From the NCBI GenBank assembly GCA_947169985.1, contig CAMVRW010000037.1, positions 1 to 13,318 of the forward strand: a DNA stretch of 13,318 nucleotides, written 5' to 3'. Below the pieces are notes generated by a model. The model did not search any database. It was not told the DNA's origin and worked only from the letters and a program-made list of their open reading frames with translations. Every line of letters begins with the position of its first letter. The first letter of the stretch is position 1. This document shows, piece after piece, positions 3,638-13,318 of this stretch. This stretch comes from an uncultured Butyrivibrio sp. (GTDB lineage: Bacteria > Bacillota > Clostridia > Lachnospirales > Lachnospiraceae). The position numbers and the translations under genes are program-made.

Positions 3638-4203
3638 TTTTACTGATCGATAATTATGACAGTTTTTCCTACAATCTGTTCCAGCTTGTTGGGGAGATAG
3701 ACCCGGATATCAGGGTCATAAGAAATGACGAGATGACTGTTGATGAGATAAGGGCACTTAACCCGGACAGGATCATTTTATCTCCCGGTCCCGGAAGACC
3801 GGAGGATGCAGGTATTATTGTTGAGGCAGCAAGGACCCTGGGAAAAGAAATACCGACTCTTGGAGTATGTCTAGGACATCAGGCAATCTGCATGGCATTC
3901 GGGGCAACGATCACCTATGCAAAAGAGCTAATGCATGGCAAGCAGTCAATGGTGAAGTTCGATAACAGCTCTCTGATCTTTAGCGATTGTCCGGAAAATG
4001 CACCGGTTGCAAGATACCATTCTCTGGCGGCTGAAAACGGCACTATTCCTGATTGTTTAAAGATAACAGCCGTTACTGAAGATGGAGAGGTAATGGCTGT
4101 TCAGCATAAGGATTACCCAATATATGGTGTACAGTTCCATCCGGAGTCCATTATGACCCCCGATGGAAAGGCAATGTTAAAAAGTTTTATAAAAAAGTGT
4201 TGA
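3634..4203 (+). CDS. trpG: Anthranilate synthase component II, glutamine amidotransferase
   Basis: Class I glutamine amidotransferase that releases ammonia from glutamine and passes it to TrpE. The 189 residues are the standard size for a stand-alone TrpG. Seen: LIDNYDSFSYNL at 4-15, SPGPGRPEDAG (50-60), the nucleophile loop GVCLGHQ with Cys79, HGKQS (101-105), ARYHSL (126-131) and the HPES with catalytic His169 and Glu171. The start ATG overlaps the trpE stop; GGAGG at 3621-3625 in the end of trpE serves as ribosome site. In many Firmicutes one such subunit also serves PabB for folate, so a dual role is possible. The stop codon lies inside the TTGACA of the next promoter, and an intrinsic terminator follows about 70 nt later. 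Confidence 0.95.
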   Translation: MILLIDNYDSFSYNLFQLVGEIDPDIRVIRNDEMTVDEIRALNPDRIILSPGPGRPEDAGIIVEAARTLGKEIPTLGVCLGHQAICMAFGATITYAKELMHGKQSMVKFDNSSLIFSDCPENAPVARYHSLAAENGTIPDCLKITAVTEDGEVMAVQHKDYPIYGVQFHPESIMTPDGKAMLKSFIKKC

Positions 4204-4229
4204 CAAGATATAGCGTTTAGGAATATTAT
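4200..4229 (+). promoter_or_regulatory. Strong sigma-A-type promoter of the asnB-glnN-gltBD operon
   Basis: TTGACA at 4200-4205 (6 of 6), an 18-nt spacer and TATTAT at 4224-4229 (5 of 6). The -35 hexamer contains the trpG stop codon. Inferred start is near 4236, so the two hexaloop hairpins and the terminator at 4271-4323 lie inside the leader of the asnB message. Confidence 0.7.
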
Positions 4230-4243
4230 GTGAAAAATAAAAA

Positions 4244-4282
4244 TTGTATACAGGTATTCAAGTGATCAACAAGGGCGTTGAT
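4244..4282 (+). promoter_or_regulatory. Tandem hexaloop hairpins, predicted ANTAR-type antiterminator element
   Basis: First hairpin: TTGTAT (4244-4249) pairs with ATTCAA (4256-4261) apart from one T-T mismatch, around the loop ACAGGT (4250-4255). After 3 nt, second hairpin: ATCAAC (4265-4270) pairs perfectly with GTTGAT (4277-4282) around the loop AAGGGC (4271-4276). Both loops are six bases with A at position 1 and G at position 4, the hallmark of RNA targets of ANTAR proteins such as EutV and NasR. Loop and 3' arm of the second hairpin are the same bases that form the 5' arm of the downstream terminator, so the two structures exclude each other. Predicted behaviour: when an ANTAR regulator holds the hairpins, transcription reads through into asnB. 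The structures are seen in the sequence; the protein partner is inferred. The mismatch in the first stem is the weak point. Confidence 0.6.
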
Positions 4283-4323
4283 GGAAGTTCATTTTTTGTG
4301 AGTTTCCACCAACGCCCTTTTTT
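4271..4323 (+). terminator. Intrinsic terminator in the asnB leader, also downstream of trpG
   Basis: AAGGGCGTTG (4271-4280) pairs with CAACGCCCTT (4310-4319). After one A-C mismatch TGGAA (4282-4286) pairs with TTCCA (4304-4308), with further weak pairs up to the T-rich loop at 4292-4298. A T6 run (4318-4323) follows. It ends trpEG transcription and also stands between the asnB promoter and the asnB start codon, so it can act as an attenuator controlled by the preceding hexaloop hairpins. Confidence 0.9.
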
Positions 4324-4353
4324 CACGTTCATGAAAAGTCAGGAGACAAATAT

Positions 4354-6009
4354 ATGTGCTCAATACTTGGAACAACATCAAAAACAATTAAACAGGAAGA
4401 GTTAAGACCTTTCTTTGACAGGACCATTCCAAGAGGCCCGGATATGTCAAAGCTTATAGAGACGCCTATCGGCTATCTTGGTTTTCACAGGCTTGCGATC
4501 ATGGGACTTCATCTTGAGGGAATGCAGCCCTTTGAACTGGAGGGAGATATTGCTGTATGTAACGGCGAGATCTACGGCTTCAGAAAGATGAAAAAGGAGC
4601 TTCAGAAGAAGGGATACAGCTTCAAGAGCGATTCAGACTGCGAAGTAATCCTTCCCCTCTACCACGAGTATGGAAATGCTATGTGGGAAAAGCTTGGAAG
4701 CGAGTTTGCCTGCATCATATACGACCATGAAAAGAACGAACTAATTGCAGGAAGAGACCCCATGGGAATCAGACCTCTTTTCTACGGATATGGAAGCGAC
4801 GGGGCAATAATGTTTGCTTCAGAGGCATGTAACCTTCAGGGGCTTTGCGATGAGATAAAGCCATTTCCTCCCGGACATTTCTATGAAGGCGGCATGTTTG
4901 TAAGATTTGAGAACCTTACAGATGTAGAGAGCTACAGCACATCAGATGTTGAAGAGGCTTGCCAGGAGATCCATGACAGATTCACCAAATCTGTTAAGGA
5001 CAGAATGGATGCTGATGCTCCACTGGGATTTCTTTTATCAGGTGGTCTTGATTCAAGCCTTGTATGTGCCATTAGCCAGAGGCTTCTGAACGAAGAGGCA
5101 CAGACAGGTAAAAAGAGCCGTAAGAGAATAAGAACCTTTGCCATAGGAATGGAAAAGGATGCCATAGATCTTAAGTACGCCAAGGAAGTTGCAGATTACA
5201 TAGGTTCTGACCACACAGAGGTGTACATGACCAGGGAACAGGTCCTTGAGGAGCTTCCAAATGTCATAAAGCTTCTTGGAACCTGGGATATTACAACAAT
5301 CAGAGCCAGCATGGGAATGTACCTTTGCTGCAAGGCAATCCACGAGAATACAGACGTGAGAGTCCTTATGACCGGTGAGATTTCCGATGAGCTCTTTGGA
5401 TATAAGTACACAGACTTCGCACCAAATGCTGAGGAATTCCAGAAGGAAGCAAAAAAGAGAGTTGATGAGCTCTATATGTACGACGTTTTGAGGGCTGACA
5501 GATGCATCAGTGCTAATTCCCTGGAAGCAAGAGTTCCCTTCGGAGATGTTTCTTTTGTCAAATATGTAATGAGTATTGACCCGGAAATAAAGATGAATAA
5601 GTACAACATGGGAAAATACCTGCTTAGACATGCCTTTGAAAAAGAAAAGCTCCTTCCGGACAACATTCTTTGGAGACAGAAAGCAGCCTTTTCCGATGCC
5701 GTAGGACACAGCATGGTTGATGATCTTAAGGCATACGCAGAAGAGAAGTACTCAGATGAAGAGTTTGAGGCAAGGAAAAAGAAATATACCTACTGCCAGC
5801 CATTTACAAAAGAAAGTCTTCTTTACAGAGAGATTTTTGAGGAGTTCTATCCCGGACAGGCACCTATGATCAAGGATTTCTGGATGCCAAATAAGGAATG
5901 GGAAGGATGCGATGTAAACGATCCTTCAGCGAGAGTTCTTTCTAATTATGGAGAATCCGGAGATACCCTTGAAGAAGTAGAAAAGCACGAGAAACTTAAA
6001 ATTTCTTGA
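4354..6009 (+). CDS. asnB: Asparagine synthetase B (glutamine-hydrolysing)
   Basis: Makes asparagine from aspartate, ATP and glutamine amide nitrogen. 551 residues, close to the E. coli AsnB length (about 554). The N-terminal class II amidotransferase domain (about 2-190) starts Met-Cys-Ser-Ile; Cys2 becomes the N-terminal nucleophile, which fixes the ATG. It also has RGPD, FHRLAI, CNGEIYG and SDCEVI. The synthetase domain has the ATP pyrophosphatase loop SGGLDSS (229-235), DITTIRAS, TGEISDELFG (Glu342, matching the critical Glu of E. coli AsnB), RADRCISANSLEARVPFGD and QKAAFSDAVGHS. One difference: the E. coli type GEGSDE reads GEISDE here. Ribosome site AGGAGA (4341-4346) is 7 nt upstream. 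First gene after the hexaloop/terminator leader; 26 nt before glnN. The last 30 or so residues are charged and poorly conserved. Confidence 0.95.
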   Translation: MCSILGTTSKTIKQEELRPFFDRTIPRGPDMSKLIETPIGYLGFHRLAIMGLHLEGMQPFELEGDIAVCNGEIYGFRKMKKELQKKGYSFKSDSDCEVILPLYHEYGNAMWEKLGSEFACIIYDHEKNELIAGRDPMGIRPLFYGYGSDGAIMFASEACNLQGLCDEIKPFPPGHFYEGGMFVRFENLTDVESYSTSDVEEACQEIHDRFTKSVKDRMDADAPLGFLLSGGLDSSLVCAISQRLLNEEAQTGKKSRKRIRTFAIGMEKDAIDLKYAKEVADYIGSDHTEVYMTREQVLEELPNVIKLLGTWDITTIRASMGMYLCCKAIHENTDVRVLMTGEISDELFGYKYTDFAPNAEEFQKEAKKRVDELYMYDVLRADRCISANSLEARVPFGDVSFVKYVMSIDPEIKMNKYNMGKYLLRHAFEKEKLLPDNILWRQKAAFSDAVGHSMVDDLKAYAEEKYSDEEFEARKKKYTYCQPFTKESLLYREIFEEFYPGQAPMIKDFWMPNKEWEGCDVNDPSARVLSNYGESGDTLEEVEKHEKLKIS

Positions 6010-6021
6010 AAATAATATATC

Positions 6022-6027
6022 AGGAGG
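6022..6027 (+). promoter_or_regulatory. Ribosome binding site deciding the glnN start
   Basis: AGGAGG, 8 nt before the ATG at 6036. The open frame extends back to a TTG at 6006 overlapping the asnB stop, but that codon has no such site and its extra ten residues would translate the ribosome site itself. Confidence 0.8.
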
Positions 6028-6035
6028 ATGAGGAT

Positions 6036-8126
6036 ATGAAAAAAGAGGCCACACATTTACCGGAACTGTTTGGAAGTTACGTTTTCAACGAAGAAACAAT
6101 GAAGGAGAGACTTTCAAGTGCTTCCTTCAAGGCATGGAAACAGTGCATCACAGACGGATCACCACTTGAGCTTTCTACAGCTAATGAGATTGCAGAAGCT
6201 ATGAAGCAGTGGGCAGTTGAGAAGGGTGCAACACACTATACACATTGGTTCCAGCCAATGACCGGCGTTACAGCAGAAAAGCACGACAGCTTTATTGATC
6301 CTGTTGGCGGCGGAAAGATCGTAATGGACTTCTCAGGAAAAGAGCTTGTAAGAGGAGAGCCCGATGCATCTTCATTCCCATCAGGTGGACTTAGAGCTAC
6401 ATTTGAGGCTAGAGGATATACAGCATGGGATCCTACATCTTTTGCATTCGTAAAGGATAATTCCTTATATATTCCTACAATCTTCCTTTCATATTCAGGA
6501 GAGGCACTGGATAAAAAGACTCCTCTTCTGCGTTCAATGGATGCAGTAAGTAAGCAGTCTATCCGTGTTCTCAGGCTCTTTGGAGACACAGAGACAAAGC
6601 GCGTAACAGCACAGTGTGGTCCTGAGCAGGAGTATTTCCTTGTTGATAAGGAGCTCTATAAGGAGCGTGAAGACCTTATTATGACAGGAAGAACTCTTTT
6701 CGGAAATAAGCCTCCTAAGGGACAGGAGCTTGAGGATCACTACTTTGGAGCTATTAAGCCTAGAGTAGCTGCATACATGGAGGATCTGGACAACGAACTT
6801 TGGAAGCTTGGAGTTCTTTCAAAGACAAAGCACAACGAGGTTGCTCCTTCACAGCATGAGATGGCACCTGTTTACTCAGATGCAAACACAGCTTCAGATT
6901 CAAACCAGATCGCTATGGATACAATGAAGAAAGTCGCTGACAGACACGGTTTTGTATGTCTTCTTCATGAGAAGCCATTTGCAGGAGTTAATGGATCAGG
7001 TAAGCATGATAACTGGTCAATCGGTACAGATACAGGAAAGAACCTTCTTAAGCCCGGCAGCACACCTAGCCAGAATGCACAGTTCCTTCTGTTCCTGGCA
7101 GCCTTTGTAAAGGGCGTAGATGAGTATCAGGATACTCTTCGCTGCACAGTTGCATCGGCAGGAAACGACCACAGACTTGGAGCTCAGGAGGCACCACCAG
7201 CTATCATCTCTATCTTCCTTGGAGATGAGCTTGAGGCAGTAGTTGAGTCCATTATTAAAGGAAAGCCATACAAGGATGGCGGAAAGAAGAAGATTGAGAT
7301 CGGCATCGATGTACTTCCTTCTATTCCACAGGACAACACAGATAGAAACAGAACATCACCTATGGCCTTCACAGGTAATAAGTTTGAGTTCCGTATGCTG
7401 GGTTCAGCTCAGTCAATCTCCGGACCAAACATTGCACTTAACACCATTATGGCTCAGGAGCTTAAGGAATTTGCTGATACTCTCGAGAAGTCAAAGAACT
7501 TCAATGCAGACCTTCAGAAGCTCATTAAAAAGACCTTTACAGATCACCAGAGGATCATCTTCAACGGAAACGGATATGACAGCTCATGGGTTAAGGAAGC
7601 AACAAAGAGAGGACTTTCAAACCTTATTTCAACAGCAGATGCCCTTCCTCACTACGCAGATAAGAAGGCAGTTGATCTTTACGTTTCAAACGGTGTTTAC
7701 ACAGAGGGCGAGCTTGAAGCAAGAGCACTTATCCATGCTGATACCTACAATGCTAAGATCGCTATCGAAGCAAACACTATGCTGGATATGATCAGAAGAC
7801 AGATCCTTCCTGCAGTTTCATCCTATGCTGCTGATCTTTGCGACAGAATGGCAACACTTAAGGCTGCCGGCTGTGTAACAGCATATGAGACTGATACATC
7901 CAAGGAAGTTGCAGTTCTTACAGATGCACTCATGAAGCAGTGCCAGAAGCTTTCAAAGGATATGGACAAGGTTCCTGAGGATCCATGGAAGGCACTTGCT
8001 TACTATCACAAGACAATCATTGCGGATATGGATGCTGCAAGAAAGTCTGCAGACGCTTTAGAGCTTTTAGTAGACCAGCAGTACTGGCCATTCCCAGTAT
8101 ATTCAGATCTTCTTTTCTCAGAATGA
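6036..8126 (+). CDS. glnN: Glutamine synthetase type III
   Basis: ATP-dependent synthesis of glutamine from glutamate and ammonia, the main ammonia-capturing step. The 696 residues match the long GSIII class (about 690-730), not the 440-470-residue GlnA type I. Seen in order: the opening LPELFGSYVFNEETMKERL; PSGGLRATFEARGYTAWDP (about 111-129); EQEYFLVD (197-204); KHNEVAPSQHEMAPVY (265-280); the HDNWSIGTDTGKNL stretch; GAQEAPPA (382-389); NRTSPMAFTGNKFEFR (438-453) and GSAQSISGPN. The C-terminal part is helical, as usual in the family. No type I adenylylation motif is expected in this class. It lies in one operon with asnB (26 nt upstream) and gltB (67 nt downstream), the second spacer containing a stable stem-loop. 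Expression is likely controlled by the leader before asnB. Confidence 0.97.
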   Translation: MKKEATHLPELFGSYVFNEETMKERLSSASFKAWKQCITDGSPLELSTANEIAEAMKQWAVEKGATHYTHWFQPMTGVTAEKHDSFIDPVGGGKIVMDFSGKELVRGEPDASSFPSGGLRATFEARGYTAWDPTSFAFVKDNSLYIPTIFLSYSGEALDKKTPLLRSMDAVSKQSIRVLRLFGDTETKRVTAQCGPEQEYFLVDKELYKEREDLIMTGRTLFGNKPPKGQELEDHYFGAIKPRVAAYMEDLDNELWKLGVLSKTKHNEVAPSQHEMAPVYSDANTASDSNQIAMDTMKKVADRHGFVCLLHEKPFAGVNGSGKHDNWSIGTDTGKNLLKPGSTPSQNAQFLLFLAAFVKGVDEYQDTLRCTVASAGNDHRLGAQEAPPAIISIFLGDELEAVVESIIKGKPYKDGGKKKIEIGIDVLPSIPQDNTDRNRTSPMAFTGNKFEFRMLGSAQSISGPNIALNTIMAQELKEFADTLEKSKNFNADLQKLIKKTFTDHQRIIFNGNGYDSSWVKEATKRGLSNLISTADALPHYADKKAVDLYVSNGVYTEGELEARALIHADTYNAKIAIEANTMLDMIRRQILPAVSSYAADLCDRMATLKAAGCVTAYETDTSKEVAVLTDALMKQCQKLSKDMDKVPEDPWKALAYYHKTIIADMDAARKSADALELLVDQQYWPFPVYSDLLFSE

Positions 8127-8193: not shown

Positions 8194-11100
8194 ATGACAC
8201 AGATGTTATACAACGACAATATTGAGCGTGATGCCTGCGGAATAGGTGCAGTTGTAAATATAGATGGACATGCAGATGTTAAGGCACTGGATGACGCTCT
8301 GAGCATAGTAGAAAAGCTGGAGCACAGAGCCGGTAAGGATGCCAGCGGAATGGTTGGAGACGGCGTAGGAATACTGTTGCAGATCTCTCACGCATTCTTT
8401 TCCAAAGCAGCCAGATGCTGTGGTGTTGAGCTTAAGGACGCAAGGGACTATGGAATAGGAATGTTCTTCTTCCCACAAAATGACCTTAAAAGAACCTTTG
8501 CAAAGAGGATGTTCGAGGTTATCTGCGAAAAGAGCGATCTTAAATTCCTTGGCTGGAGAGACGTTCCGGTACATCCTGAAATCCTTGGAGATATGGCCAG
8601 AGACTGCATGCCATATATCTGCCAGTGCTTTATCGAAAGACCTGAGGACTGCGAAAAGGGCATAGATTTTGACAGAAAGCTCTACGTCTGCAGGAGAGAG
8701 TTTGAGCAGAGCTCAGATGATACCTACATTACGTCTTTGTCATCAAGGACCATTGTTTATAAAGGAATGTTCCTGGTAAAACAGCTTCGGGCATTCTATG
8801 AGGACCTTCAGAGCAAGGACTACAAGACAGCAATTGCCATGGTCCACTCAAGGTTTTCAACTAATACTACTCCCAGCTGGGAGAGAGCACATCCCTACAG
8901 AATGATTGCCCACAACGGCGAGATCAACACCATCAGAGGTAACATCGACAGGATGCTTGCCAGGGAAGAAACAATCATTTCGCCCGTTATGAATGACGCA
9001 GATATCGATAAGATCTTTCCGGTGGTCAACAAGAGTGGTTCCGATTCAGCAATGCTGGATAACACCCTTGAATTTATGTACATGAACGGCATTGATCTTC
9101 CTCTGGCTGTAATGATGACAATACCTGAGCCCTGGAAGCACAATCACTTCATGGAGGAGAACAAAAAAGATTTCTATCATTACTACGCTACCATGATGGA
9201 GCCCTGGGATGGACCGGCTGCGATTCTTTTCACCGATGGTGATGTACTGGGGGCTACCCTGGACAGAAACGGCCTTCGTCCTTCCAGATACTATATAACT
9301 GACGACAACAGACTGATCCTTTCCTCCGAGGTAGGTGTTCTGGATATTGAGCCTAAGCATATCGTTAAGAAATCAAGGCTTCAGCCCGGAAAGATCCTTC
9401 TTGTGGATACCAAGGAAAAGAGGATCATCTCCGATGAGGAGTGCAAGAATTATTACGCGTCCAGACAGCCCTACGGCGAGTGGATCGACGGAAATCTCCT
9501 TCATCTTGGAGAGCTGGCTGTTCCAAATAAAAAGATCCCAACACATTCTCAGGAACTTAGAGATAAGCTCTACAAAGCCTTTGGATATACCTATGAAGAC
9601 GTTAAAAACGGTATTCTTCCAATGGCAGCTAACGGAATAGAGGCAACTGCCTCCATGGGACACGATGTTCCTTTGGCAGTACTTTCAGAGAAGCATCAGC
9701 CTCTTTTCTCATATTTCAAACAGCTCTTTGCCCAGGTCACAAACCCGCCTATCGACTCGCTTCGCGAGGAAATAGTAACAGATACAACCGTTTATATTGG
9801 ATCTGACGGTAACCTTTTGCAGGAAAAGAGCGAAAACTGTCGTGTACTTGAGGTTAATAACCCCATCCTTACGGGAGTTGACCTTCTTAAGATAAAGACC
9901 CTGAATCAGCCGGGATTTAAGACTGAGACAATATCTCTTTTGTATTATAAGAACACATCCCTGAAAAAGGCGCTGGAGCAGCTTTCTATCAGCGTAGACA
10001 GGGCATACAGCAAGGGAAGCAACATTATCATCCTCTCTGACAGAGGAATCGATGAGAACCATGTGGCAATTCCTTCACTGCTGGCGATCTCCTCAGTTGA
10101 GCAGCATCTGGTCAGGACCAAGAAAAGAACTGCCATCTCTCTTATATTAGAGAGCGGCGAGCCCAGAGACGTACATCAGATGGCAACTATTCTTGGATTT
10201 GGTGCAAGAGCCATCAACCCTTACCTGGCACATGAATGCATTGCTGAGCTTATCGACATCGGTATTCTGGACAAGGATTACCACACGGCGATCAAGGATT
10301 ACAATTTCGCGATCCTTCACGGAATTGTAAAGACTGCAGCAAAGATGGGTATTTCAACCCTTCAGTCATACCAGTCAGCTAGGATTTTCGAGGCAATCGG
10401 TCTTTCCAAGGAAGTAATTGATGACTACTTTACAGGAACAGTCAGCAGGGTAGGCGGAATCGGCCTTGCAGAGATCGAGGAGGGAATCAAATTCCGTCAT
10501 GATCACGCCTTTGACCCTATGGGTCTTGGAACGGATACAAGCCTTGACAGCACAGGATTCCACAAGCTTAGAAGCGGAAATGATAAAGAGGATCATCTAT
10601 ATAATCCTCAGACTATAATAGCCCTTCAGCAGGCTACAAAATCAGGCAGCTACGAGAGATTCAAGGAATACACCGACATGGTGGATGATGAAAAGCCACA
10701 TACATTAAGAGGTCTTCTTGAATTTGTAGCGGTAAAGGAGCCTGTTCCTCTTGATCAGGTAGAGCCTGCATCTGAGATTGTAAAGCGCTTTAACACAGGC
10801 GCCATGAGCTACGGCTCAATCTCTCAGGAAGCCCACGAGACAATGGCTATTGCCATGAATACCCTGGGCGGTAAGTCAAATACCGGTGAAGGCGGCGAAA
10901 ACCCTGACAGATTTGGAACCATAAGAAATAGTGCTATCAAGCAGGTGGCTTCAGGAAGATTTGGTGTGTCCAGCAGATACCTTCTAAGTGCCCAGGAGAT
11001 TCAGATCAAGATGGCTCAGGGCGCTAAGCCCGGTGAAGGTGGACATCTTCCGGGAAAGAAAGTATATCCCTGGGTTGCAAAGACCAGGTTCTCAACTCCC

Positions 11101-12705
11101 GGAGTATCACTGATTTCACCCCCGCCACATCACGATATCTATTCTATCGAGGATCTGGCACAGCTTATATATGACCTTAAAAATGCCAATAGAAAGGCAA
11201 GGATATCAGTAAAACTGGTATCTGAGGCCGGAGTTGGAACCATAGCATCAGGTGTTGCCAAGGCAGGAGCTCAGGTTATCCTGATTTCAGGCTATGACGG
11301 AGGAACAGGTGCAGCTCCACAGAGCTCAATCCATAACGCGGGACTTCCCTGGGAGCTTGGTGTGGCTGAGGCACACAGAGCGCTTATTGAGAGCGGACTT
11401 AGAGATCACGTTATCCTTGAGACCGACGGAAAGCTCATGAGTGGTCGGGACGTTGCCATTGCTTGTCTTCTTGGTGCTGAGGAGTTCGGATTTGCTACAG
11501 CTCCCCTTGTAACCATGGGCTGTATGATGATGAGAGTCTGCAATCAGGATACATGTCCTGTGGGTATTGCAACTCAGAATGAGACCCTTAGAAAGAGATT
11601 TAAGGGTAAGCCGGAATACGTTATGAACTTCATGCTTTTCATAGCTGAAGAACTCCGTGAGATCATGGCTCGCCTTGGATTTAAGACTGTAGATGAGATG
11701 GTTGGAAGAACCGACTGTCTGCAGGTTAAGGAAAAGCAGATCACAAAGCGTGCCGAGATGGTAAATCTCACTCAGATCCTGAACAGGGACTACGCAGGAA
11801 TTGAGGACAGACACTTTAATCCGGCCAAGATCTACGATTTCAAGCTGAATACTACAGTTGATGAAGCAGTTCTTTTACCTAAGTTTGAAAAGTTCATCTC
11901 TCAGGGCAAAAAACACGATGAGGAAGTCATTGTTACCAGCACAAACAGGGCAGTTGGAACCATCATGGGCTCTGTTATCACTGAGAAGCTGGGAACAGAG
12001 CTTCCCGATGACACCTTCGTGGTTAACTGCCAGGGCGGAGTAGGCCAGTCCTTTGGAGCATTTATTCCAAAGGGAATGACCTTAAAGCTTGAAGGAGATG
12101 CCAATGACGGACTTGGAAAGGGCCTTTCCGGCGGAAAGATTGTAGTTGTACCGCCTAGGGAAGCTAAGTTCAAGGCATCGGAGAACATAATTGTCGGAAA
12201 TGTGGCACTGTACGGTGCAACCTCAGGAAAAGCTTATATCTGCGGAGTAGCCGGAGAGAGGTTCTGTGTAAGAAATTCAGGAGCCATCGCAGTAGTTGAG
12301 GGCTGTGGAGACCACGGTCTTGAGTATATGACCGGCGGAAGAGCAGTTGTCCTTGGAGACACCGGTAAAAACTTTGCAGCAGGTATGAGCGGCGGAATCG
12401 CTTACGTTCTGGATACAAAACATGATCTGTATAAGCGCATGAATAAGGAAATGGTTTCACTTCAGGAGCTTATAGAGAAATACGATATAGCAGAACTTAA
12501 GGATATCCTTGAGGACTACGTAAAAGAAACCGGATCAGAGCTTGGAAAGTCAGTACTTGAGAACTTTGAAGAGAACATTCCTCACTTTAAGAAGATCGTT
12601 CCACATGACTACCAAAAGGTGATAAGTGCCATCGGTCGTTTCGAGGAGCAGGGAATATCCCATGAAAATGCAGTACTTGAGGCATTTAATGAGATAACAA
12701 AGTAA
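8194..12705 (+). CDS. gltB: Glutamate synthase, large subunit
   Basis: Large subunit of NADPH-type glutamate synthase: hydrolyses glutamine and channels ammonia to 2-oxoglutarate, giving two glutamates with GltD-supplied electrons. 1503 residues, normal length, with no frameshift. A class II amidotransferase domain begins after a 14-residue propeptide at Cys15 (DACGIGAV) and includes FSTNTTPSW and HNGEINT (240-246) and RNGLRPSRYY. A central domain follows (about 470-770). The FMN/2-oxoglutarate domain has FNTGAMSYGSIS (from 866), GKSNTGEGGENPDRF, KPGEGGHLPG and SGYDGGTGAAP. The 3Fe-4S site is Cys1110-x5-Cys1116-x4-Cys1121. The C-terminal GXGXG beta-helix domain has CQGGVGQSFGAF from 1279. Start: AGGAGA 8 nt before ATG; the propeptide is short but plausible. 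GltD follows 21 nt later. Confidence 0.97.
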   Translation: MTQMLYNDNIERDACGIGAVVNIDGHADVKALDDALSIVEKLEHRAGKDASGMVGDGVGILLQISHAFFSKAARCCGVELKDARDYGIGMFFFPQNDLKRTFAKRMFEVICEKSDLKFLGWRDVPVHPEILGDMARDCMPYICQCFIERPEDCEKGIDFDRKLYVCRREFEQSSDDTYITSLSSRTIVYKGMFLVKQLRAFYEDLQSKDYKTAIAMVHSRFSTNTTPSWERAHPYRMIAHNGEINTIRGNIDRMLAREETIISPVMNDADIDKIFPVVNKSGSDSAMLDNTLEFMYMNGIDLPLAVMMTIPEPWKHNHFMEENKKDFYHYYATMMEPWDGPAAILFTDGDVLGATLDRNGLRPSRYYITDDNRLILSSEVGVLDIEPKHIVKKSRLQPGKILLVDTKEKRIISDEECKNYYASRQPYGEWIDGNLLHLGELAVPNKKIPTHSQELRDKLYKAFGYTYEDVKNGILPMAANGIEATASMGHDVPLAVLSEKHQPLFSYFKQLFAQVTNPPIDSLREEIVTDTTVYIGSDGNLLQEKSENCRVLEVNNPILTGVDLLKIKTLNQPGFKTETISLLYYKNTSLKKALEQLSISVDRAYSKGSNIIILSDRGIDENHVAIPSLLAISSVEQHLVRTKKRTAISLILESGEPRDVHQMATILGFGARAINPYLAHECIAELIDIGILDKDYHTAIKDYNFAILHGIVKTAAKMGISTLQSYQSARIFEAIGLSKEVIDDYFTGTVSRVGGIGLAEIEEGIKFRHDHAFDPMGLGTDTSLDSTGFHKLRSGNDKEDHLYNPQTIIALQQATKSGSYERFKEYTDMVDDEKPHTLRGLLEFVAVKEPVPLDQVEPASEIVKRFNTGAMSYGSISQEAHETMAIAMNTLGGKSNTGEGGENPDRFGTIRNSAIKQVASGRFGVSSRYLLSAQEIQIKMAQGAKPGEGGHLPGKKVYPWVAKTRFSTPGVSLISPPPHHDIYSIEDLAQLIYDLKNANRKARISVKLVSEAGVGTIASGVAKAGAQVILISGYDGGTGAAPQSSIHNAGLPWELGVAEAHRALIESGLRDHVILETDGKLMSGRDVAIACLLGAEEFGFATAPLVTMGCMMMRVCNQDTCPVGIATQNETLRKRFKGKPEYVMNFMLFIAEELREIMARLGFKTVDEMVGRTDCLQVKEKQITKRAEMVNLTQILNRDYAGIEDRHFNPAKIYDFKLNTTVDEAVLLPKFEKFISQGKKHDEEVIVTSTNRAVGTIMGSVITEKLGTELPDDTFVVNCQGGVGQSFGAFIPKGMTLKLEGDANDGLGKGLSGGKIVVVPPREAKFKASENIIVGNVALYGATSGKAYICGVAGERFCVRNSGAIAVVEGCGDHGLEYMTGGRAVVLGDTGKNFAAGMSGGIAYVLDTKHDLYKRMNKEMVSLQELIEKYDIAELKDILEDYVKETGSELGKSVLENFEENIPHFKKIVPHDYQKVISAIGRFEEQGISHENAVLEAFNEITK

Positions 12706-12726: not shown

Positions 12727-13318
12727 ATGGGAAAGCCAACAGGATTTTTGGAATATGCAAGACGTGAGGATGCTTGTATCCCCGCTGATGAGCGCATATA
12801 TAACTTCAATGAATTTCATATTTCCCTTGACCCGGAAAAGAGAAAGGAACAGGGCGCCAGGTGTATGAATTGTGGTGTTCCTATGTGCCAGTCCGCTATA
12901 AAGCTTAAGGGAATGGTCACAGGATGCCCCCTTCATAACCTGATTCCTGAGTGGAATGACGAGATCTACCACGACCATATAGCTCATGCCCTTTCAAGAC
13001 TCTTAAAAACCAGTAATTTCCCGGAATTTACCGGAAGGGTTTGCCCGGCACTTTGCGAAAAAGCCTGCATCTGTGGCATGAATGAAGATCCGGTAACGAT
13101 CCATAACAACGAGTTATACCTTATAGAGACAGCCTTTAAGCAGGGGATCATGACACCCAGGATCCCAAAGGTCAGAAGCAGCAAGAGAGTTGCTGTCATA
13201 GGCAGTGGTCCTTCGGGGCTTGCTGTTGCTGACCAGCTTAATCACAGAGGTCACAACGTCACTGTATTTGAAAGGGAAGATCGCATAGGCGGACTTTTGA
13301 TGTATGGAATCCCCAACA
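12727..13318 (+). CDS. gltD: Glutamate synthase, small subunit (N-terminal 197 residues, cut by window end)
   Basis: Transfers electrons from NAD(P)H through FAD and iron-sulfur clusters to GltB. The visible part has the N-terminal ferredoxin-like region with two cysteine clusters: Cys46, Cys49, Cys54 and Cys67 ([10 protein letters not shown]...[12 protein letters not shown]), then Cys106, Cys110 and Cys114 ([10 protein letters not shown]), the ligands expected for 4Fe-4S clusters. The FAD-binding GSGPSG (159-164) and the following [11 protein letters not shown] confirm the GltD/DPYD-N-terminal family. The context directly after gltB, and the [12 protein letters not shown] opening, favour GltD over related oxidoreductases such as the NfnB-like protein. 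About 300 residues with the NAD(P)H site lie outside. The ribosome site is AAAGGGA (12711-12717), about 9 nt before the ATG. Confidence 0.95.

Follow-up and report, generated by a model that had tools for sequence, protein, structure and literature searches.

What controls transcription of the asnB-glnN-gltB-gltD operon, and does the control need one RNA hairpin or two? The head of this operon fills most of a contig of 13,318 nucleotides (nt) from an uncultured Butyrivibrio sp. (the window; positions refer to it unless locus L002 is named). The genome is Butyrivibrio-like, Butyrivibrio being the nearest named relatives; its assembly has 376 contigs and 2.53 Mb and is 67% complete. An original prediction, made from the letters of the window, held that the leader ahead of asnB is the target of an ANTAR antitermination protein and carries two tandem hexaloop hairpins, P1 and P2. 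The comparisons described here support the target and one of the hairpins. Judged from sequence, the leader is quite likely a transcription attenuator of an ANTAR nitrogen regulon of the NitR type (NitR being a name from Clostridium work, used here for the ANTAR protein encoded beside glnA). A single hexaloop seems to be enough at most promoter-bearing sites. The leader has the following parts.

4200..4229, plus strand: sigma-A type promoter, TTGACA-18-TATTAT, 11/12 matches, the top one of 30 promoter-like sites in the window

4244..4261, plus strand: P1 of the original prediction, TTGTAT-ACAGGT-ATTCAA, doubtful as an RNA hairpin; hexaloop ACAGGU at 4250-4255; holds the element TGTATACANGWATNC (4245-4259)

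4265..4282, plus strand: P2, putative ANTAR-type antiterminator hairpin, ATCAAC-AAGGGC-GTTGAT, perfect 6 base pairs (bp); hexaloop AAGGGC at 4271-4276

4271..4319 (hairpin) and 4318..4323 (U-run), plus strand: intrinsic terminator, exclusive with P2

The near-consensus promoter and the two hexaloops, each with A at position 1 (A1) and G at position 4 (G4) in hairpins 3 nt apart, lie where the original prediction put them. Transcription would start near 4236 and make the leader about 120 nt long. On its own, P2 folds at -4.3 kcal/mol (z -5.5). The terminator hairpin folds at -29.2 kcal/mol (z -5.3), a value equalled by 0 of 200 shuffles. Its 5' arm starts inside the P2 loop and uses the 3' arm of P2; the two structures share bases and are therefore mutually exclusive, as had been proposed. 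By structure, the asnB leader is a real attenuator. The terminator at 4271-4323 is absent from the list that a simple terminator scanner made of the window, probably because a mismatch interrupts the stem. An Rfam scan gave no family above cut-off in the window (miRNA and AgrB fall below) or in nine related loci, and no T-box match in the window.

The first stem had been named as the weak point because of a U-U mismatch. P1 indeed has 5 of 6 pairs, and it is predicted to be unfolded both next to P2 and alone (minimum free energy 0; 200/200 shuffles fold equally well or better). A mechanical dual-hairpin scan of the plus strand of the window finds one match, against a mean of 1.0 in letter-shuffled sequence, and the same scan of the window and L002 stays at about chance level. 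Taken by itself, the dual pattern does not exceed what chance would give; it is relatives that supply the evidence.

The comparison set comprises 346 leaders of asnB, glnA, glnN, amtB and gltB, or 279 once near-identical ones are removed. In the leaders of these nitrogen genes, a hairpin with an ANNGNN hexaloop overlaps 109 of 172 strict terminators, compared with 43 of the 783 remaining terminators of these loci; for gltB leaders the figure is 0 of 4 strict terminators. At 102 distinct AANGG sites near a terminator, selected by the loop only, stem positions 1-5 are paired in 82, 82, 83, 70 and 60% of cases. In the controls, 302 AANGG loops lying elsewhere give 35-42%, and other near-terminator positions 34-37%. 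Hairpins with an A-A-N-G-G loop and differing, covarying stems are thus found at the terminator base in asnB, glnA, glnN and amtB leaders of Butyrivibrio and Oscillospiraceae, and the stems vary by gene (CAAC/GTTG, GAGC/GTTC, CGGC/GTCG, GATGC/GCATC, AGAC/GTCT, CAGC/GCTG and GGC/GCC). Alignment A1 holds 59 of 64 distinct 18-mers; one spurious register and four minor variants were excluded. Its covariation score is 0.597 against 0.232 shuffled, with 0/500 shuffles reaching it, for 59 selected sites whose inner three pairs were selected for. When the loop is not constrained, a hexaloop hairpin lies at the terminator base in 25 of 46 element contexts, and the P2 loops in these have G4 in 25/25, G5 in 25/25 and A1 in 24/25. 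P2 is a well supported conserved RNA element on this evidence: its hexaloop A1 and G4 are conserved with compensatory stem changes, and it overlaps the 5' arm of the terminator. Such conservation had been expected of both hairpins; it holds for P2 and, in the wider leader set, fails for P1. Many Oscillibacter-type asnB genes (L040-L062 and similar) have, by eye, T-box-like leaders (GGTGGCACCGCGG...) in place of P2.

The position of P2 bears on the number of hairpins. Ninety P2 sites were defined by an AANGG loop, a stem of at least 3 bp and a script-found terminator; sites seen by eye and missed by the script (for example, amtB of L266 and pyrG of L348) are left out of the 90. A promoter with at least 9/12 matches stands ahead of 63 of the 90 sites, whereas ten shuffles gave 4-11 of 90. 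In 47 of these 63 promoter-bearing sites the gap from the -10 box to the start of P2 is 13 nt or less, and in 51 it is 20 nt or less. For promoters with at least 11/12 matches, P2 is within 13 nt in 33 of 38, and the remaining five carry the element TGTATACANGWATNC. If transcription starts about 7 nt past the -10 box, P2 would be at or near +1, with no room for P1. This comparison does not support the two hairpins of the original prediction as the conserved unit, as most promoter-bearing related leaders have no room for P1 and the G4 of P1 is not conserved. What these lineages conserve appears to be a single hexaloop, in most cases close to the inferred start of the RNA. Two P2 units were found by script in 5 of 85 P2 leaders; one of the five, L047, is two registers of one site, which leaves four. 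By eye, tandem hairpin and terminator units precede a glnQ-like ABC ATPase gene in three Butyrivibrio loci (L218, L221, L225; best NCBIfam match GlnQ, below cut-off). A gene for an ArAE/FUSC-type protein lies behind a similar leader in L229 and in genome G054.

Could the window nevertheless hold a classical dual-hexaloop ANTAR target, in which P1 (4244-4261) recruits the protein and P2 antiterminates? The P1 loop ACAGGU has the required A1 and G4, and the linker to P2 is 3 nt. A P1-like hairpin lies within reach of P2 at 6 of the 90 sites (4.1 expected from shuffling), and four of the six are asnB leaders from the window's clade, where one species (L009/L038) has a perfect 6-bp P1 stem. The same stretch can be followed as the element TGTATACANGWATNC, which has 67 matches in 61 genus genomes against 14 for the reversed pattern. 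Of the 61 genomes, 33 have it at most 3 kilobases ahead of asnB, and there the base at loop position 4 is A in 13, T in 8, G in 7 and C in 5. In the 27 leaders with the element ahead of P2 the same base is G in 8, A in 8, T in 8 and C in 3, and the element ends 5-99 nt ahead of the P2 stem, against the 3-nt linker in the window. Loop position 4 of P1 varies freely in 25 related leaders, in all of which the G4 of P2 is invariant. Distance matters to some degree: G4 is kept in 7/10 leaders with the element at most 13 nt from P2 and in 1/15 with it farther away (p=0.002, from related species that are not independent). Even within the window's clade, G4 is lost in L006/L037 and L007/L039. No second upstream hexaloop hairpin with conserved A1 and G4 was found across the wider leader set. 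With P1 predicted to be unfolded as well, the dual-hexaloop reading is unlikely. Because G4 is mostly kept at short distance and one species has the perfect stem, an older element ahead of P2 may have been recruited as P1 in the window's asnB clade.

The element may instead be all or part of a DNA operator at which another regulator acts. In this clade its place is between the inferred transcription start and P2; in others it is farther upstream of P2. It is near-palindromic (TGTATAC-AN-GTATTC) and is kept as a sequence while its spacing to P2 varies over the 5-99 nt given above. In many amtB leaders CTCCGGAG or TCCGCGGA dyads are seen close by (by eye), and in L009/L038 a copy of the element's first half follows the terminator. 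However, in amtB leaders the element sometimes stands between two attenuators, where it may be transcribed. The operator is a tentative reading with a little less than an even chance; it is compatible with a single hexaloop as the working unit. The element is also seen across L204-L242, often near a CTCCGGAG/TCCGCGGA dyad, and is possibly a DNA operator there.

The prediction of an ANTAR target called for an ANTAR protein in the genome, and one was found. The single match (PF03861) is a protein of 182 amino acids encoded 40 nt downstream of glnA. It resembles Rv1626, EutV and AmiR, mainly in the C-terminal half. The position of EutV Met172 is Met in 75/75 aligned proteins; that of Tyr164 is His in 70/75, as in AmiR. 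The receiver match is weak (PF00072, E=0.095), and the presumed phospho-acceptor column, chosen by eye, holds Asp in 17/75 aligned proteins and Gly in the protein of this genome, the receiver of which appears degenerate by sequence. It is like AmiR-type regulators in this His and in the weak receiver match, and unlike them in that its gene lies beside glnA. ANTAR matches are present in 57 of 61 genus genomes, one each, and at least one is present in 43 of the 50 genomes behind the asnB loci (a set that overlaps the 61). In a class-wide sample, GlnA matched in 33 of 60 genomes and 30 loci were examined; in 23 of these 30, glnA is followed on its own strand, at most 400 nt downstream, by an ANTAR gene. 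In several Oscillospiraceae (L164-L177) the ANTAR gene adjoins a divergent glnN rather than glnA.

As a whole, the proposal of an ANTAR target thus keeps its terminator-competing hexaloop, its ANTAR match in the genome and its nitrogen genes, and loses the two hairpins as a conserved unit. The asnB leader is most likely an ANTAR target on these grounds, of a function class already predicted in 2012: Ramesh et al. 2012 (PMC3369931) list predicted ANTAR targets upstream of genes for P-II, ammonium transporters and glutamate, glutamine and arginine synthases.

The genes behind the leader agree with a nitrogen function, namely ammonia assimilation. In window order, trpE and trpG are upstream, followed by the promoter, the leader and the operon; a second P2 lies on contig C18.

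4354..6009, plus strand: asnB, glutamine-hydrolysing asparagine synthetase B (NF006949, 632 bits, cut-off 499)

6006..8126, plus strand: glnN, glutamine synthetase type III (GSIII_N, 262.7 bits, cut-off 25); 4-nt overlap with asnB

8194..12705, plus strand: gltB, glutamate synthase large subunit (NF008730, 1627 bits, cut-off 1047)

12727..13318, plus strand: gltD, glutamate synthase small subunit, truncated by the contig end

L002 8110-8025 (contig C18), minus strand: P2 hairpin of a second unit, GGCAGC-AATGGC-GCTGTG, with its terminator, between gltD and amtB

The gltD gene would run on into contig C18 (L002 minus strand 9009-8110), because 12 bases are common to both contig ends and the GltD halves are complementary. 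On the minus strand of C18, gltD is followed by an ammonium transporter gene, amtB, with a fused P-II domain, and then by a GNAT acetyltransferase gene; glnA and the ANTAR gene are convergent to these three. In genome G009 the order is gltD, amtB, glnA and ANTAR gene, on one strand of the asnB-bearing contig; in the genome of the window, glnA and its neighbour are therefore oriented the opposite way. This glnA (L002 near 3855) has an apparent frameshift about 145 nt past the ATG, a possible assembly error. The weak AgrB hit of the Rfam scan, at 1705-1781 in the window (23.6 bits against a cut-off of 40), covers a hairpin followed by T's and is probably an ordinary terminator.

R1, a covariance model built on P2 without P1, was used to look for further members of the regulon in three whole genomes: that of the window, G054 and G073. 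Each search scored 150 first-look candidates, of 958, 1163 and 1613, respectively. Hits in the first two are not independent, because R1 includes sequences from both. The genome of the window gave 16 matches at E up to 10, with the window's P2, a training sequence, ranked top. Four are terminator-coupled: asnB, amtB and glnA, all from training, and a non-training leader of an AGCS amino-acid symporter gene. G054, which is 99% complete, gave 27 matches, of which 8, in 7 leaders, are terminator-coupled by script. The training leaders are those of glnA and amtB. Non-training leaders precede dapL (LL-diaminopimelate aminotransferase) and genes for an amino-acid ABC binding protein (PF00497 above cut-off), an AGCS relative (by eye) and, with a score under the NCBIfam cut-off, a gamma-glutamyl-GABA hydrolase relative. 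The pyrG leader of G054 also has P2 and a terminator, by eye. At L343/L348 of this genome, dapL and pyrG are divergent, with sites about 110 bp apart and a separate P2 and terminator unit for each (pyrG by eye).

A number of results weigh against the single-hexaloop ANTAR attenuator. The seventh terminator-coupled leader of G054 has two tandem units and precedes the ArAE/FUSC-type protein gene, not an obvious nitrogen gene. In G073, R1 gave 45 matches, of which 30 were fetched and one, at glnN, is terminator-coupled; the other top matches inspected are apparently in coding DNA. Many glnA stems of P2 are merely 3 bp, and Oscillibacter-type glnA leaders keep the loop with the stem broken at the third pair (GAGC/GCCC). 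Class-wide, 6 of 30 glnA leaders have an AANGG P2 at a terminator, and two of these (L316, L323) are without an adjacent ANTAR gene. Two of five covariation measures are not clearly above shuffles (both-side pair changes, equalled in 473/500 shuffles; pair types, in 37/500). One slid pairing (-2, first pair) equals the level of the true pairing, because the closing C also pairs with loop G5. P2 does not track ANTAR proteins across 102 genome handles: it is present in 59/91 with and 6/11 without an ANTAR match (p=0.52; leaders partly sampled), or in 52/84 and 5/10 after removal of eight likely copies. The six genomes with P2 and without ANTAR are G015 (81% complete), G020 (83%), G051, G066 (probably a copy of G051), G082 and G087; in G051/G066 the contig stops within glnA, where nitR would follow. 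Published work on dual sites points the same way. EutV is reported to need both hexaloops in vivo, a longer linker being inactive (PMC3369931, PMC8934654), and dual stem-loops are described across actinobacteria (PMC8164766).

The missing co-occurrence also suits a third alternative: a terminator that acts constitutively or under a control unrelated to ANTAR, such as nucleoside triphosphate (NTP)-sensing start-site effects or a CsrA-like protein that binds GGA. The hexaloop would then be incidental. NTP-sensing start-site effects are known for pyrG of Bacillus; here P2 frequently begins at the inferred +1, and a pyrG leader is among the sites by eye. The covariation of stems around a fixed A-A-N-G-G loop speaks against an incidental hexaloop. 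A CsrA-type reading of the GG loop was rejected because C or G prevails at loop position 6, where GGA would have its A. In G054, most of the terminator-coupled sites stand ahead of nitrogen or amino-acid genes, and the window leader has no Rfam match above cut-off. This alternative is improbable.

For the ANTAR attenuator, the mechanism can be outlined with protein binding, start sites and the direction of the nitrogen response as predicted steps. By default, the nascent RNA would form the terminator and RNA polymerase would halt ahead of asnB. When the ANTAR protein is active, presumably under nitrogen limitation, it would grip the P2 hexaloop through A1, G4, G5 and the closing C-G pair. P2 would be held folded, depriving the terminator of its 5' arm, and asnB-glnN-gltB-gltD would then be transcribed. 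The second P2 and terminator, in the gltD-amtB gap, would gate amtB. At most promoter-bearing sites the unit would be a single hexaloop near the transcript 5' end, for which one hairpin seems sufficient.

The dual-hexaloop ANTAR RNAs (EutV, NasR, AmiR) are alike in having an A1/G4 hexaloop hairpin on the terminator 5' arm upstream of nitrogen genes. They differ in that two hairpins define the family and eut induction needs both, whereas here one is conserved, mostly close to where the RNA is inferred to begin and in some cases in tandem hairpin and terminator units. EutV binds a single hexaloop (Walshe et al. 2022, PMC8934654). That binding mode likewise uses one hexaloop, but the sites here are terminator-coupled. 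PMC8934654 also allows single-hexaloop sites where polymerase timing is absent, and urges further work. Apart from this suggestion, no single-hexaloop ANTAR attenuator is named in the titles and abstract openings of the open-access texts searched, a weak negative.

For the wider group, we lean towards the view that Clostridia such as Butyrivibrio and Oscillospiraceae control a nitrogen regulon through ANTAR attenuators that have a single hexaloop, begin with the transcript's first nucleotides and sometimes come in tandem. The recruitment hairpin would be dispensable, and the asnB leader of the window would be a derived form with an older element before P2. Dual-hairpin search models are expected to overlook such leaders. 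The published view of EutV is that antitermination needs two hexaloops, the first of them for recruitment; a leader with a single hexaloop near +1 allows a direct test of this view. The arrangement would offer a nitrogen circuit at the RNA level, covering glnA, asnB, glnN, gltBD, amtB and amino-acid uptake, in major rumen and gut bacteria.
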